Assembly (NCBI RefSeq): GCF_029211225.1
Contig: NZ_JARGEM010000003.1
Coordinates: 434,001-498,000, forward strand
Direction: 5' to 3'
DNA: 64,000 nucleotides
Source of the DNA: Antiquaquibacter metalliresistens
GTDB lineage: Bacteria > Actinomycetota > Actinomycetes > Actinomycetales > Microbacteriaceae
The position numbers and the translations under genes are program-made. Under the pieces are notes generated by a model. It searched no databases, was not told the DNA's origin, and saw only the letters and a program-made list of their open reading frames with translations. Numbering within the stretch: position 1 is the stretch's first letter; every line of letters starts with the position of its first letter. Positions 23,964 to 61,381 of this stretch are shown piece by piece.

Positions 23964-25010
23964 ATGTCTTACTCGGTCGCCGTCGCCGGCGCCAGCGGGT
24001 ACGCCGGCGGGGAGCTTCTGCGGCTCCTCTCCGCGCATCCCGATTTCGAGGTCACCACGGTGACCGCCAACCAGAACGCGGGCCAACCGCTGATCGCGAC
24101 GCAGCCGCACCTGCGCTCGCTTGCGCACCTCACTCTGCAGGAGACCTCGCCCGAGACCCTCGCCGGTCACGATGTCGTCTTCCTCGCCTTGCCGCACGGC
24201 AAGTCGGGCGAGGTCACCAAGCACCTGCCGGAATCCACCCTCGTGGTCGACTGCGGGGCCGACCACCGGCTCACGAGCGAAGCGGACTGGGCCGCCTTCT
24301 ACGGGGGCGAGTTCTTCGGCGCGTGGCACTACGGCATGCCCGAGCTGCTGCTGGCGGGCGACGCCACCCAGCGCGAGGTGCTGGCCGGGGCCAAGCGCAT
24401 CGCGGTGCCGGGATGCAACGTGACGGCCGTTACGCTCGGGCTCGCCCCGGGCATCCACTCGGGCGTCATCGAGGCGCGCGACATCGTCGCCGTGCTCGCG
24501 GTGGGGCCCTCCGGCGCAGGCAAGAGCCTGCGCGTCGACCTGCTCGCCAGCGAGATGCTCGGTTCCGCGAGCGCCTACGGCGTCGGCGGCGTGCACCGGC
24601 ACAATCCGGAGATCCGGCAGAACCTGACCGCGGCGGGCGGGGTGGACGTGAGCGTGTCGTTCACTCCCGTGCTCGTGCCGATGAGCCGCGGCATCCTCGC
24701 GACCTCGACGGCGCGTCTGGCGGCGGGCACCACCGAGGCCCAGGTGCGCAGCGCCTGGGAGGCCGCCTACGCTGACGAACCGTTCGTGCACGTCTTGCCC
24801 GCTGGCACCTTTCCGCGCGTCGCCGACACCACGGGCGCCAACACGGTGCTGATCGGCCTCGCGGTCGACGAGGCCGCAGGCAGGGTCGTGGTGGTCAGCG
24901 CGCTCGACAATCTCGTCAAGGGCACGGCGGGGGCGGCGATCCAGTCGGCGAACCTCGCCCTCGGTCTGCCCGAGACCGCAGGACTGACCGTGGATGGAGT
25001 GGCACCGTGA
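23964..25010 (+). CDS. argC: N-acetyl-gamma-glutamyl-phosphate reductase
   Basis: NADPH-dependent reductase making N-acetylglutamate semialdehyde, third step of arginine synthesis. The 348 residues begin with the Rossmann motif [18 protein letters not shown], and include the catalytic cysteine in [27 protein letters not shown] and [11 protein letters not shown] are typical. First gene of a complete argC-J-B-D-F-G-H run; argJ overlaps by 4 bp. ATG start directly after a -10-like box. Confidence 0.96.
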
Positions 25011-26155
25011 GCGTGACGGCGGCGGCAGGATTCGAGGCCGCGGGCGTCGCGGCCGGACTCAAGGCCAGCGGCGGCCTCGACGTCGCGCTCGTGGTCAACC
25101 GCGGCCCGCTGCAGCACGCGGCGGCCGTGTTCACCACTAACCGCGCACTTGCCAACCCGATCATCTGGTCGAAGCAGGTGATCGCCGACGGCACCGTGAG
25201 CGCGATCGTGCTCAACTCCGGCGGCGCGAACTGCTTCACGGGCGCGCAGGGCTTTCAGGCCACCCACGCCACGGCGGAGGCGGTCGGCGAGGCGCTCGGC
25301 GTCTCCGCGGGGGACGTGCTCGTGTGCTCGACCGGGCTCATCGGCGAGCAGCTGCCGCTCGACAAGCTGCTGGCCGGGGTGCGTGCCGCGACCGCGGACC
25401 TCGGCGATCACGGCGAGGCGGCGAGCCTGGCGATCATGACCACCGACTCCAAGCCCAAGCGCTCGATCCGCACCGGCGATGGCTACACGATCGGCGGCAT
25501 GGCCAAGGGCGCCGGGATGCTGGCGCCGGGCCTTGCGACCATGCTCTGCGTCATCACCACCGACGCCGTGCTGAGCGCCGCCGATCTCGATACCGCGCTG
25601 CGGGCAGCGACCCGCGTGAGCTTCGACCGGCTCGACTCGGACGGCTGCATGTCCACCAACGACCAGGTCTCGCTGCTGGCCTCCGGAGCCTCGGGCGTCG
25701 CGCCGTCGCTCGAGGCCTTCACGGCGCAGCTCACCGAGGTGTGCGTCGACATCGCCACCCAGCTGCAGCAGGACGCGGAGGGGGCCAGCCACGACATCGC
25801 GGTGCGGGTCGTGAACGCCGCGAGCGAGGAGGACGCCGTGGAGGTGGGCCGGGCCGTCGCGCGGAACAACCTCTTCAAGGCGGCGATCTTCGGCAACGAC
25901 CCCAACTGGGGCCGGGTGCTCGCCGCGATCGGCACCACGGATGCCGCGTTCGACCCCTACGACGTCGACGTGAGCATGAACGGGGTGCGGGTCTGCCACG
26001 CGGGCGGACCCGACCGCCCGCGCACCGAGGTGGACCTCACGCCGCGCGCGGTGGATCTGCTCATCGACCTCAAGGTCGGCGATGCCGCTGCCACGATTCT
26101 CACCAACGACCTCACGCACGACTACGTGCACGAGAACAGCGCGTACTCCAGCTGA
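25007..26155 (+). CDS. argJ: Bifunctional glutamate N-acetyltransferase/ornithine acetyltransferase
   Basis: ArgJ recycles the acetyl group from acetylornithine to glutamate; 382 residues. The precursor is autocleaved into two chains at a conserved Ala-Thr bond, here in [11 protein letters not shown], making the Thr the nucleophile. Other family elements: [24 protein letters not shown]-like [13 protein letters not shown] and [13 protein letters not shown] start overlapping argC; stop shares one base with the argB ATG. Whether it also uses acetyl-CoA (NAGS activity) cannot be told. Confidence 0.95.
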
Positions 26156-27026
26156 TGGTCAGCCAAGACGTCGCCGCGGCCAAGGCCGCCGTGCTCATCG
26201 AGTCCCTGCCCTGGCTGCGGCGCTATCACGGCGCCACGATCGTGGTGAAGTTCGGCGGCAACGCCATGATCGACGACGAGCTCAAGCGCAGCTTCGCCGA
26301 GGACATGGTCTACCTGCGCACGGTCGGGCTGCGCCCGGTGGTCGTGCACGGCGGGGGACCGCAGATCACCGCGGAACTGACACGCCGCGGCATCCCGAGC
26401 GAGTTCCGGGGCGGGTATCGCGTGACCACCGAGGAATCGATCGGGGTGGTGCGTCAGGTGCTCGCCGAGCAGGTGGGCGGCGAGCTCGTCGGGCTGATCA
26501 ACGAGCACGGAGCGATCGCGGAGGGCATCTCCGGCGACGAGGGCGGGCTGTTCACCGGTGAGCGCCGCAGTACCATCATCGACGGCGAGGTCGTCGACCT
26601 CGGGCTCGTCGGCGAGGTCACCGCGGTCGATCCCACTCGGGTGCTGCAGGTGCTCGACGTCGGCGGCATCCCCGTGGTCTCCACGGTGGCGAACGGGCCG
26701 GACAGCCTGCTGAACGTGAACGCCGACTCGGCCGCGGCATCCCTGGCGATCGCCGTGAAGGCGGCAAAACTCGTCGTGCTCACGGATGTCGCCGGCCTCT
26801 ACCGCGACTGGCCGGACCGCGATTCGCTCATCTCGGTGATCGCCGTCGACGAACTGGCGGCGCTGCTGCCGAGTCTGGAGTCCGGCATGATCCCCAAGAT
26901 GACGGCGTGCCTGGATGCGGTGCGCGCCGGCGTGCCGACCGCCGCGGTGATCGATGGTCGGGTGCCGCACTCGATCCTGTTGGAGATCTTCACTCGAGGC
27001 GGCATCGGCACGGAGGTGGTTCCGGA

Positions 27027-27030
<4 letters not shown>
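26155..27030 (+). CDS. argB: Acetylglutamate kinase
   Basis: Phosphorylates N-acetylglutamate; amino-acid-kinase fold, 291 residues. Motifs: VVKFGGNAM near residue 27, [39 protein letters not shown] and [11 protein letters not shown], plus the regulatory C-terminus [14 protein letters not shown]. The N-terminal helix [20 protein letters not shown] is the part that mediates hexamerisation and arginine feedback inhibition in sensitive homologues, so feedback control is likely. ATG at 26155 (TGATG with argJ); an in-frame extension to 25324 runs through argJ and is ignored. Confidence 0.96.
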
Positions 27031-29107
<2,077 letters not shown>

Positions 29108-29171
29108 TCCACTGGTCGAGCCCGTCGAGACCCATCCCTAGACTGAGAACCGAACCCAAGGAGCAACTCAC

Positions 29172-31927
<2,756 letters not shown>

Positions 31928-31943: not shown

Positions 31944-32480
31944 TCAGGCGGCGAGCATGATCGCCGCGGCGCACGCCCCGGCCCAGATCAGGCTGGTGAG
32001 CGTGCCGATGATGAATCGCTCGCGCGCCTGACTGTCGTCGAGCTCTGAGAAGCGCCCGAGGCCCTTGACGGCCACGATGATCGCGATCGCGGCGGCCTGG
32101 CCGGCGACGACCGCGCCGATCAGGGCCAGGCGTTCCAGGATGCCGATGGTCGCCCCGCCCCGCAGAATCTCCTTGCGCGTCGTGCGGCTGTCGTCCACCA
32201 CGATGCCGCCGTGGTCGCCGAGCTCGACGCCGCCCTGCGCGAACCGCAGCACGAGACCCACGATGGGGCTGCCGCCGAGCACACCGAGGCCGGCCAGACC
32301 GATGGCGACGGCGATCGACAGCCATGCGCCCTCGGCGCGGAACGGCAGCGCGAGCGACAGCACGATCACGACGGCGACGACGGCCACCGCGGGCAGCACG
32401 AACCACTGCCGGTTCGTGACCAGGGCGACGATCACCAGGGCGAGCGTCGCAGCGATGGCGACGATCACTGCGATGGTCAT
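31944..32480 (-). CDS. Five-helix membrane protein, partner of SatD-like protein
   Basis: A 178-residue membrane protein: helices at about 2-21, 27-46, 54-79, 114-136 and 158-177, with a hydrophilic loop (about 83-112) between the third and fourth. The C-terminal pattern IGILERLALIGAVVAGQ ... KGLGRFSEL ... FIIGTLTSLIWA resembles the conserved end of DUF3307-type membrane proteins that accompany satD; this resemblance is from memory and not checked. Start overlaps the upstream SatD-like gene by 4 bp, so both act together. The single 5' operator region for the pair is 33071-33180. Confidence 0.7.
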   Translation of the reverse strand: MTIAVIVAIAATLALVIVALVTNRQWFVLPAVAVVAVVIVLSLALPFRAEGAWLSIAVAIGLAGLGVLGGSPIVGLVLRFAQGGVELGDHGGIVVDDSRTTRKEILRGGATIGILERLALIGAVVAGQAAAIAIIVAVKGLGRFSELDDSQARERFIIGTLTSLIWAGACAAAIMLAA

Positions 32481-33070
32481 GACGTCTCCTCCCCGAGCCT
32501 GGCTACGAGCCTAGCCAGGGGCGCCGTCGCGGCGAACTCAGCCTTCAGATCGGCGGCGCGGGCCCGATCGCTGGCCGCCTGCGGCGAGATCGCCAAGCGC
32601 TTCGCCGCCTCGGCCTGCGTGAGCCCGGCCACCCGCAGGTCGTAGAGCTGCCAGCCCTCCTCGGTGCGTCGGTTGCGAAGCAGCAGCAGCAGGTCGACCA
32701 GCGCCTCGACGTCCGCGGCCGATTCGGCGCCCTCGACTGCGAATCGGCTCGGCTTGCCCTTGGCTCGTCCCACGGCGGTCCGTGCGGCGATGAACGCCTC
32801 ACCCGTGGATTCGCGGATGCTGTTCCCGAGTGGGCGGCGCACCGCTCCGACCCCGAGGCCCACGCTGAATCGCCTGGTGCGGGTGAGCAGCAGCAGGGCT
32901 CGCAGCGCCGTCGATGCGTCGGCGGTCAGCAGCTGCACTTCGTCGCCCGCGCTGCGGTCCGGGGGGAGGGTGAGACCCTCGCCGAGTTCTGCGCTGAGGC
33001 CTTCGATGACCTCGGCAACGGCATCCACGCTGTGGCGGCTGTTGATCTGGTCTGCGGTGACGACGAACAT
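32477..33070 (-). CDS. SatD family protein with C-terminal helix-turn-helix
   Basis: A soluble 197-residue protein matching the SatD family. Residues 1-110 read like a nucleotidyl-cyclase or GGDEF-type ferredoxin fold: strand VVTAD (Asp7), a helix, then AGDEVQLL (Asp43-Glu44), a helix, then SVGLGVGAVRRP and GEAFIAARTAV. Residues about 150-173 form a helix-turn-helix (LTQAEAAKRLAISPQAASDRAR). The cyclase-like reading is inference. In streptococci satD lies in an acid-adaptation locus, but no biochemical function is known. Co-translated with the membrane protein downstream; upstream lie three identical dyads, so autoregulation through its own HTH is plausible. Confidence 0.75.
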   Translation of the reverse strand: MFVVTADQINSRHSVDAVAEVIEGLSAELGEGLTLPPDRSAGDEVQLLTADASTALRALLLLTRTRRFSVGLGVGAVRRPLGNSIRESTGEAFIAARTAVGRAKGKPSRFAVEGAESAADVEALVDLLLLLRNRRTEEGWQLYDLRVAGLTQAEAAKRLAISPQAASDRARAADLKAEFAATAPLARLVARLGEETS

Positions 33071-33082
33071 CCGGATCCCATC

Positions 33083-33157
33083 TCAAGGCTGGAAACTTGA
33101 TTCCTTGTAGATCAAGGCTAAGGACTTGATTCAGAGAAGTCAAGGCAGGCGGCTTGC
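33083..33157. promoter_or_regulatory. Array of three TCAAG-N8-CTTG(A) operator-like dyads
   Basis: Dyad 1: TCAAG 33083-33087 and CTTGA 33096-33100. Dyad 2: TCAAG 33112-33116 and CTTGA 33125-33129. Dyad 3: TCAAG 33140-33144 and CTTGC 33153-33157. Each has an 8-bp spacer and starts 29 and 28 bp apart; flanks are similar (AAGGCT, CTTGATT). The array fills the intergenic region between the divergent SatD-like and DUF817 genes. It is much richer in A/T than its surroundings. Confidence 0.8.
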
Positions 33158-33167
33158 CGTTACCCGG

Positions 33168-33173
33168 GATACT
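33168..33173 (+). promoter_or_regulatory. -10-like GATACT before DUF817 gene
   Basis: GATACT ends 7 nt before the ATG at 33181, suggesting a leaderless transcript that starts immediately next to the third dyad. Confidence 0.4.
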
Positions 33174-33180
33174 GGACAGC

Positions 33181-34056
33181 ATGGCCCGCTTCACCCACGT
33201 CGAGCAACGCATCGATGCGCTGGCCCATCGCGTGCTCGACGGCGCGCCGCCCCTGCGGGGCGCCCGGTCGTTTCTGGTCGAGTTCCTCGTGTTCGGGGCC
33301 AAACAGGCCTGGGCGTGTGTCTTCGGCGCCGCGCTCCTGGTCGTGCTCGTGGCCACGAGGTTCTGGTACCCGGATGACGCGGCCCTCGCCCGCAACGACT
33401 TCCTCGTCATCGCGGCCGTCGTCATCCAGGTCGTCATGGTGCTCTCGGGACTCGAGACCCCGAGAGAGCTCATCGTCATCGTGCTCTTCCACATCGTCGG
33501 CACGGCCATGGAGCTCTTCAAGACCGACGTCGGCTCGTGGAGCTACGAGGGCGGGGGCGTGCTGCACCTCGGGGCGGTGCCCCTCTACAGCGGCTTCATG
33601 TACGCCGCGGTGGGCTCATACCTGGTGCGGGTCTACCGACTGTTCGACCTGCGCTTCGATCGCTACCCACCGCGCTGGATCACCGCGATCCTCGCCGCGC
33701 TGATCTACGCGAACTTCTTCTCCCACCACGTCATCCCCGACGCCCGCTGGGTGCTGCTCACCGCGGTGGTCGCCGTCTTCGGCCGGTGCGTCATGCACGT
33801 TCGCGTGTTCCGAGCCCGGTTCCGGATGCCGCTGCTGGCGGCCTTCGCGCTCGTGGCGTTCTTCATCTGGATCGCCGAGAACGTCGCGACCTGGTCGAAC
33901 GCGTGGATCTACCCCAACCAGGAGAGCGGCTGGGAGCCGGTCTCCCTCACCAAGTTCGTCTCCTGGTTCCTGCTCATGATCATCTCCGTCGTGCTCGTCA
34001 CGTGGGTGTACCGCCCGAGGCCACCGGGGATGGCGGCGAGCCTCCGCTACGGTTGA
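33181..34056 (+). CDS. DUF817 family membrane protein
   Basis: An integral-membrane protein of 291 residues with about eight hydrophobic segments. FLVEFLVFGAKQAWACVFGA, the acidic FKTDVGSWSYEGGGVLHLGAVPLYSGFMYAAVGSYL and the ending FVSWFLLMIISVVLVTWVYRP are the conserved blocks of DUF817, a family of bacterial membrane proteins without known function. Start at ATG 33181; an in-frame start at 33154 would overlap the operator array. Divergent from the SatD-like operon and 3 bp from tyrS. Confidence 0.85.
   Translation: MARFTHVEQRIDALAHRVLDGAPPLRGARSFLVEFLVFGAKQAWACVFGAALLVVLVATRFWYPDDAALARNDFLVIAAVVIQVVMVLSGLETPRELIVIVLFHIVGTAMELFKTDVGSWSYEGGGVLHLGAVPLYSGFMYAAVGSYLVRVYRLFDLRFDRYPPRWITAILAALIYANFFSHHVIPDARWVLLTAVVAVFGRCVMHVRVFRARFRMPLLAAFALVAFFIWIAENVATWSNAWIYPNQESGWEPVSLTKFVSWFLLMIISVVLVTWVYRPRPPGMAASLRYG
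34048..34053 (+). promoter_or_regulatory. -10 box TACGGT, leaderless promoter of tyrS
   Basis: TACGGT at the 3' end of the DUF817 gene ends 6 nt before the tyrS GTG; no ribosome-binding site is present, and no room for a T-box leader. Confidence 0.45.
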
Positions 34057-35893: not shown

Positions 35894-41003
<5,110 letters not shown>

Positions 41004-41158
41004 CTTCCGTCCAGTGCCTGGCTTGCCAGGTGAGAGACAAATGAGTTGTGCTTGCGTCCACTTTGTGGTTCCCGATCTACGGACGGGAACTGCGCCCAGC
41101 TAGGGAGAAGACACGGTCTTCGACTGAACTGGCCAGAAACGATTGATAGATCAATAGT

Positions 41159-41277
41159 GTTTCGGCGGCCATAGCGAGAGGGAAACGCCCGGTTACATTC
41201 CGAACCCGGAAGCTAAGACTCTCTGCGCCGATGGTACTGCAAGGGGGACCTTGTGGGAGAGTAGGACACCGCCGGAC
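41159..41277 (+). rRNA. rrf: 5S ribosomal RNA
   Basis: About 119 nt with terminal helix (TTCGGCGG pairing with CCGCCGGA), CGCCCGGTTACATTCCGAAC and GCGCCGATGGTACTGC. It follows 23S after 155 bp. No tRNA follows; a strong terminator does. Confidence 0.95.

Positions 41278-61307: not shown

Positions 61308-61381
<74 letters not shown>

Follow-up and report, generated by a model that had tools for sequence, protein, structure and literature searches.

A SatD-family protein with a cyclase-like domain and a tiled operator array as a candidate repressor of its own membrane-protein operon

A SatD-like gene, a membrane-protein gene and three upstream dyads lie side by side in a 64,000-nucleotide stretch of Antiquaquibacter metalliresistens (contig NZ_JARGEM010000003.1, positions 434,001 to 498,000; the whole stretch analysed is hereafter the window), raising the question of what kind of protein SatD is, which protein reads the dyads and how the membrane protein is involved. 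Both genes are where the original prediction placed them, according to open reading frame calls: the SatD-like gene (satD) at 32477-33070 (-), encoding 197 aa, and the membrane partner at 31944-32480 (-), encoding 178 aa, with a 4-bp overlap between the membrane gene start and the satD stop that bears out their proposed co-translation. On the minus strand the pair has argH on one side and, on the other, a divergent DUF817 gene (33181-34056, +; PF05675, E 3.1e-101) with an ATG start and an alternative TTG start at 33154. A row of genes at 25007-31787, which we take by resemblance to be argJ, argB, argD, argF, argG and argH, adjoins the satD pair. A complete rRNA operon (16S, 23S, 5S) is found at 35894-41277 (+), beyond a tyrS-like gene, and a tRNA at 61308-61381. 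The nearest named relative of the SatD-like protein, at 73% identity, comes from a Rhodoglobus MAG.

By profile comparison, the window protein is a divergent member of the SatD family (PF16264; S. mutans secretion and acid tolerance D). An alignment of this protein with 39 relatives (A2, 40 rows) was matched by hhalign to one of 28 SatD proteins from other phyla (A5) with a probability of 99.8 (E 5e-28, 186 columns; locus L078 is common to both), in agreement with the assignment made in the original prediction. PF16264 itself was matched by 19/28 of the A5 proteins at E 0.001 (best 8.5e-32), whereas the window protein had no match even at E 10. A search of its own genome with the PF16264 profile found none, and the control genomes gave none either; two homologues scored weakly, at 28.4 (L078) and 25.3 bits (L061) against a curated cut-off of 29. 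The window protein shares with the family the D...S and GD motifs, the C-terminal HTH and, as a family trait observed here, a downstream DUF3307-type partner, with which the window partner has its C-terminal domain in common.

The AF2 model of the SatD-like protein (pLDDT 96.5, pTM 0.90) contains both of the parts that had been proposed, a beta-alpha-beta-beta-alpha-beta-alpha-beta domain followed by a helical part carrying the HTH. Based on the model and on profiles, the class III cyclase-like domain extends over residues ~1-113, the HTH over ~137-172 and the recognition helix over 163-172, and D7, G42-D43-E44, the strand at 68-74 and the GEAFIAARTAV helix at 91-103 all lie as described beforehand. 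The top Foldseek match in the PDB by E-value was the CdaR/PucR-type regulator 3onq (E 6e-4), which presumably combines a GGDEF-like domain with an HTH; a TM-score of 0.29 and an rmsd of 14.7 indicate that the overall arrangement does not match. It was followed by the adenylyl cyclase Ma1120 (E 0.0047) and by Rv1900c (E 0.021), each at prob 0.99, and then by a GGEEF domain (prob 0.91) and Panoptes OptS (prob 0.90). TM-scores to cyclases were modest, at 0.41-0.47 (normalised to target length) for the highest-scoring named chains and lower for the others. When a profile of 37 N-terminal domains was compared with the PDB, the six best sequences were all class III cyclases, comprising Rv1900c (E 0.0011), four Ma1120 variants (0.005-0.008) and one more (0.037). 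By sequence profile the SatD domain is closest to class III cyclases, and since class III, GGEEF and mCpol chains also score by fold, the suggested cyclase resemblance is upheld. Full-length profiles rank HTH proteins first; the other-phylum one also matches Ma1120 (E 0.057), and a cyclase is absent among the 60 PDB matches of the actinobacterial one.

The metal-binding aspartate pair of the N-terminal profile aligns with that of Rv1900c (DIVnS versus DIVGST and GDefQ versus GDgF). Counterparts of D7, S11, G42 and D43 are invariant in all three alignments, which share members, and the two metal-binding aspartates, D7 and D43, are kept in 40/40 A2 rows. The other catalytic positions were read from the alignments with the roles that Asn, Arg and Lys have in class III cyclases. 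The position of the transition-state Asn is occupied by Phe in 40/40 A2 rows and by Phe (or Tyr) in other-phylum members; the transition-state Arg (R97) is kept in 39/40 A2 rows and is Gly in 26/28 A5 rows; and the purine-contacting Lys position holds Arg (R39) in 38/40 A2 rows and other residues elsewhere. Because of the aromatic residue at the Asn position and the Gly in place of Arg in other phyla, we think that the N-terminal domain is a degenerate cyclase, more probably sensing a nucleotide than making one. Activity may nevertheless survive loss of the Asn by itself, which several established cyclases tolerate according to the passages available from PMC4886424.

The partner is a membrane protein, as had been predicted, with five or six helices in its AF2 model (pLDDT 89.5) where exactly five had been given, and no match among PDB folds was obtained (best E 0.6). 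Twenty-eight aligned actinobacterial partners share a membrane domain at the C-terminus, containing charged residues that do not vary (IGxLER...K...R...E...GT..S), and the conserved motif IGxLER...K...RF...E...IGTL.S makes up the C-terminal portion of 26 DUF3307-type proteins as well. An hhalign comparison supports this shared C-terminal domain (prob 98.5, E 3.4e-15). The window partner resembles DUF3307 proteins in this domain and in its position after satD, and differs in having no match to their N-terminal domain (PF11750), which was not found in its genome either. Since several actinobacterial partners are only ~120-145 aa long (L060, L062-L069, L071-L074 and L076), the C-terminal membrane domain nearly alone seems to be enough. 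On an Agrobacterium pAt plasmid (L085, 4240-5315), the gene after that of a SatD family member encodes a short hypothetical protein with a match to the C-terminal portion of DUF3307 proteins, similar to the short actinobacterial partners.

The linkage of the two genes is widespread. SatD homologues were detected in 80/149 related genomes, and DUF3307 homologues in 56/198 genomes of another phylum, that of genome G149 (Balneolaceae), which we take to be Bacteroidota in GTDB. From the 56 genomes with a match, 25 loci were fetched in full and 20 analysed for neighbourhood; satD lies immediately upstream of the DUF3307 gene in 20/20 of these (19 by BLAST, L165 by position and motif), and the five further loci also contain a SatD match. 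The same order occurs in a Fusobacterium record, where SatD was recognised by motif, and on a haloarchaeal plasmid, so that the pair spans several bacterial phyla and extends to one archaeal plasmid. A partner was detected in 38/40 loci of the collection scan, L043 and L046 being without one on stretches that end soon after satD. Two genomes (G130:C12 and G086:C4) have a satD homologue matched as two separate pieces on the same contig.

Upstream of satD the three dyads of the original prediction are exact (33083-33099, 33112-33128 and 33140-33156, spaced by 29 and 28). On the plus strand they define the operators O1 (33082-33101, CTCAAG-N8-CTTGAT), downstream of the expected transcription start, O2 (33111-33130, ATCAAG-N8-CTTGAT), overlapping the predicted -10, and O3 (33139-33158, GTCAAG-N8-CTTGCC), overlapping the predicted -35. 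The repeat unit is 20 bp, ATCAAG-N8-CTTGAT, tiled as ATCAAG-N8-CTTGAT-N8-ATCAAG with two symmetry centres per 28-bp period, and because the stretch between units often forms the same dyad reversed, the half-sites alternate about 14 bp apart. Allowing one mismatch, the window holds 17 dyad matches, where 5.9 would be expected and 100 shuffles never gave more than 12. The genome scan for TCAAG-N8-CTTGA that had been suggested gave a divided outcome, in that the single dyad is not enriched (13 on both strands versus 52 for the backwards motif), while the spaced cluster stands out. An exact double CAAG dyad was located in 14 of 149 related genomes, at 16 places, all of them 4-58 bp upstream of a satD match (backwards control, 1/149 genomes), and the array, in this exact CAAG form, is therefore found only at satD.

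This periodicity extends well beyond the CAAG half-site. The top autocorrelation lag was 28/29 in 39/50 satD upstream regions (shuffles, mean 1.56, max 5; other windows of those loci, mean 0.46, max 4) and in 22/35 regions outside Actinobacteria (shuffles, mean 0.97, max 4; random windows, mean 0.73, max 3), where the half-sites differ (TATTAC, TATCTG, TATAGC, TATCGG); it was not the top lag in the other 11/50 and 13/35. A stricter palindrome-plus-repeat score beat at least 99/100 shuffles in just 27/50 regions. The 50 regions resulted from dereplication of 65 at >85% identity, and 49 are labelled or placed as Actinobacteria; the remaining one, L054, is from a MAG labelled Acidobacteria. Left out were L029 (no start found), L007 and L008 (copies of the window), L010 (the same as L039), L076 (truncated start), L078 (other phylum) and L050 (32 nt upstream). 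L140 and L088 were omitted from the other-phylum period set as near-duplicates, and start codons of the other-phylum loci were partly re-chosen between the listing of half-sites and the period count. The satD pair of L054 groups with Microbacteriaceae sequences, and the contig is perhaps mis-binned.

A search for TTGANN-N17-TANNNT predicts a sigma70-like satD promoter on the minus strand, TTGACT-N17-TAGCCT, with the -35 (33138-33143) in O3 and the -10 (33115-33120) in O2, 44 nt before the ATG. The same signature occurs in 22/50 upstream regions with N17 (shuffle mean 0.2, in shuffles that do not preserve the array) and in 11/50 with N18, whereas each remaining spacing between 10 and 25 gives 0-2. 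In 12/22 regions the end of the -10 is 6-7 nt from the ATG, which suggests a leaderless mRNA. Given that the operators cover both the -35 and the -10, we infer repression and not activation.

Half-sites co-vary with the recognition helix of SatD itself. Half-site classes were set from DNA alone, allowing 39/50 rows to be assigned, and were compared with every protein column; the three strongest associations fell on recognition-helix positions 168, 164 and 165. K168 was associated with TCAAC (5 in the class, 0 outside; p 1e-5), G164 with TTAG (3 in, 2 outside; p 1.1e-3) and S165 with TCAGG (3 in, 3 outside; p 2.2e-3). As these p-values are uncorrected and column 82 comes right behind position 165 (uncorrected p 2.3e-3), only K168 is clearly above the rest. 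Class labels were crude, two Microbacterium rows with G164 being labelled AAG. Under a looser rule covering all 50 rows, K168 and TCAAC occurred together in 6 rows, the residue only in 1, the half-site only in 1 and neither in 42; the corresponding counts were 5, 3, 0 and 42 for G164 and TTTAG, and a weak 3, 4, 1 and 42 for S165 and TCAGG. In a tree built without the HTH, well-supported independent pairs numbered 2 for K168/TCAAC, 3 for G164 and 1 for S165, with an average of 1.8 concordant and 0.0 discordant independent pairs for K168. Two K168 pairs on well-supported branches suggest, and do not prove, that helix and half-site evolved together independently. Self-regulation through the dyads, as originally envisaged, agrees with the double dyad being found only at satD and with the co-variation, which is the evidence that points to SatD as the protein binding its own array.

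The original prediction had also placed the DUF817 gene under the control of the dyads. As worded, this part is not supported. In the 19 distinct loci whose fetched stretch includes a DUF817 gene, that gene usually lies on the far side of the membrane gene in convergent orientation (15 loci) and diverges from satD in 4, while the array remains next to satD. This gene order weakens the case for DUF817 as a regulon member, and its adjacency is probably incidental.

The family, the fold, the array and its confinement to satD among the genomes scanned, the promoter signature and the helix/half-site co-variation are supported by computation. Our preferred reading, to which we give a probability of about two in three, is that SatD represses its own two-gene operon, with a nucleotide or metal sensed by its cyclase-like domain. 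The C-terminal HTH would bind the alternating half-sites (ATCAAG in the window) spread across the satD promoter, and SatD so bound would cover the -35 and -10, switching off satD and the co-translated membrane gene. The N-terminal domain, as a putative class III cyclase homologue with both metal-binding aspartates kept and other catalytic residues lost, would bind a nucleotide (with metal), most probably as the signal altering the DNA binding of SatD. The level of the membrane protein, with its IGxLER/K/RF/IGTL domain, would thereby follow the nucleotide state; here we infer both the ligand sensing and the role of the membrane protein. In a transposon study (PMC11323703), satD, present in 178/249 S. 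pyogenes genomes, is reported to be the only accessory gene that ranks within the uppermost quarter for essentiality. This would fit a repressor of a harmful partner, since loss of the repressor would free that partner; the essentiality could also have another cause. More tentatively, HTH-HTH and cyclase-cyclase dimer contacts might alternate along the half-site array, so that SatD would form a cooperative filament, gated by a nucleotide bound at the interface of the degenerate cyclase domains. If true, SatD would represent a previously undescribed type of autorepressor, nucleotide-gated and dedicated to one conserved membrane protein, that occurs in Archaea as well as in several bacterial phyla.

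Three other explanations were weighed against autorepression. SatD may be an active enzyme whose cyclic nucleotide or dinucleotide acts on the partner while the HTH adjusts its own supply. The invariant metal-binding aspartates and the R97 retained in A2 are compatible with this, as are the fold matches to active cyclases and Panoptes OptS and the cyclases that dispense with the Asn (PMC4886424, in part). Against these stand the Phe at the Asn position throughout A2, the Gly that replaces Arg in most other-phylum rows and the purine-contacting Lys that is not kept, which together make synthesis an unlikely function. The pair could instead be a Panoptes-like guard module or a toxin-antitoxin system, in which a toxic membrane protein is held off by SatD and freed when a nucleotide pool is lost, for instance under phage attack. 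Such a role would suit the behaviour of satD in S. pyogenes, as well as the coupling of a cyclase-like enzyme to a membrane effector in Panoptes, as excerpts of PMC12657218 portray it. Some plasmid contexts also point this way. The satD/DUF3307 pair is carried by 3.77-kb E. coli/Klebsiella plasmids, lies near toxin-antitoxin genes on Pseudomonas fragi and Agrobacterium plasmids, and on a Sphingomonas plasmid (L082, 1947-9437) immediately adjoins a Pycsar effector and cyclase gene, with a TIR-domain gene a few genes off. Chromosomal contexts argue the other way. For the 20 loci of the G149 phylum (147/151 neighbouring proteins scanned, four omitted; plain counts), the commonest Pfam families among the matches listed are housekeeping, and a phage-defence island was rejected on this ground for the chromosomal loci; the window copy, too, has arg genes, tyrS and an rRNA operon around it. 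PADLOC gave one weak match, over the HTH, among eight SatD and partner proteins, with none for the window proteins, and no DUF3307 match was found in phage records. We consider a guard or toxin function rather improbable on balance.

The dyads might also belong to another regulator, HspR/HAIR-like or global, with the SatD HTH acting elsewhere. The intervals between dyads read CTTGA-N10/11-TCAAG, which to our eyes superficially resembles a HAIR element. The double dyad occurs only at satD in the 149 genomes, the half-sites vary with SatD's own recognition helix, and other phyla retain the spacing although their half-sites are quite different; the HspR/HAIR reading was rejected because the half-site changes with the SatD helix and the spaced dyads are found only at satD. 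That an unrelated regulator owns the array is very unlikely indeed.

Several further observations concern the genomic surroundings of the pair. Among the PADLOC matches listed for neighbours, most belong to one set of five DEAD-box helicases, with single matches to RTasRmuC, PD-T4-6, mad2, mad3 and ZorB. Two Enterobacteriaceae plasmids, L079 (pEC34A, 3.77 kb) and L088 (4.42 kb), have five annotated genes each, including a satD-like and a DUF3307 gene; a DNA search of 5,426 E. coli genomes with the pEC34A module gave no match. Another plasmid pair lies near an AAA ATPase and a helicase, and that of a Salinivibrio plasmid among ordinary metabolic genes.

Among characterised proteins, class III cyclases such as Rv1900c and Ma1120 share with SatD the fold and both metal-binding aspartate positions, and SatD differs in being without the transition-state Asn and the purine-contacting Lys and in being fused to an HTH within 197 aa. 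DUF2652 proteins are described, in the portions seen of PMC4886424, as bacterial class III cyclase relatives whose mycobacterial members keep the Arg and not the Asn; that description (~250 aa, single-domain bar one, an HTH unmentioned in those portions) sets them apart from SatD. Panoptes, the nearest described pairing of a palm-fold protein with a membrane effector that we know of, is a defence system of an mCpol enzyme (OptS) and an S-2TM-beta membrane effector (OptE) in the passages of PMC12657218 available. It likewise joins a palm-fold nucleotide domain to a membrane protein; SatD has in addition an HTH and an operator array, and its partner is without a PDB fold match. The excerpts of PMC11323703 associate satD with acid tolerance in S. 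mutans, a label repeated in those of a Fusobacterium annotation paper (PMC10326533), and those of PMC5786311 and PMC10210942 report changes in satD expression or protein level and nothing further. A DNA-binding or cyclase role is absent from these passages on SatD, and our search of open-licence literature found no work linking SatD to a cyclase, to an operator or to DUF3307; the printed literature may differ.

SatD and DUF3307 are already named families, and what is new is the proposal of a self-repressing, cyclase-derived regulator of one membrane protein. SatD/DUF3307 pairs are common, yet the literature found, as far as the passages available go, says little of them beyond 'acid tolerance'. 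With the present proposal the family would gain a testable job, and the accessory satD gene that behaves as essential in S. pyogenes a possible reading, while the co-varying helix and operator pairs would offer a natural set for studies of DNA recognition.
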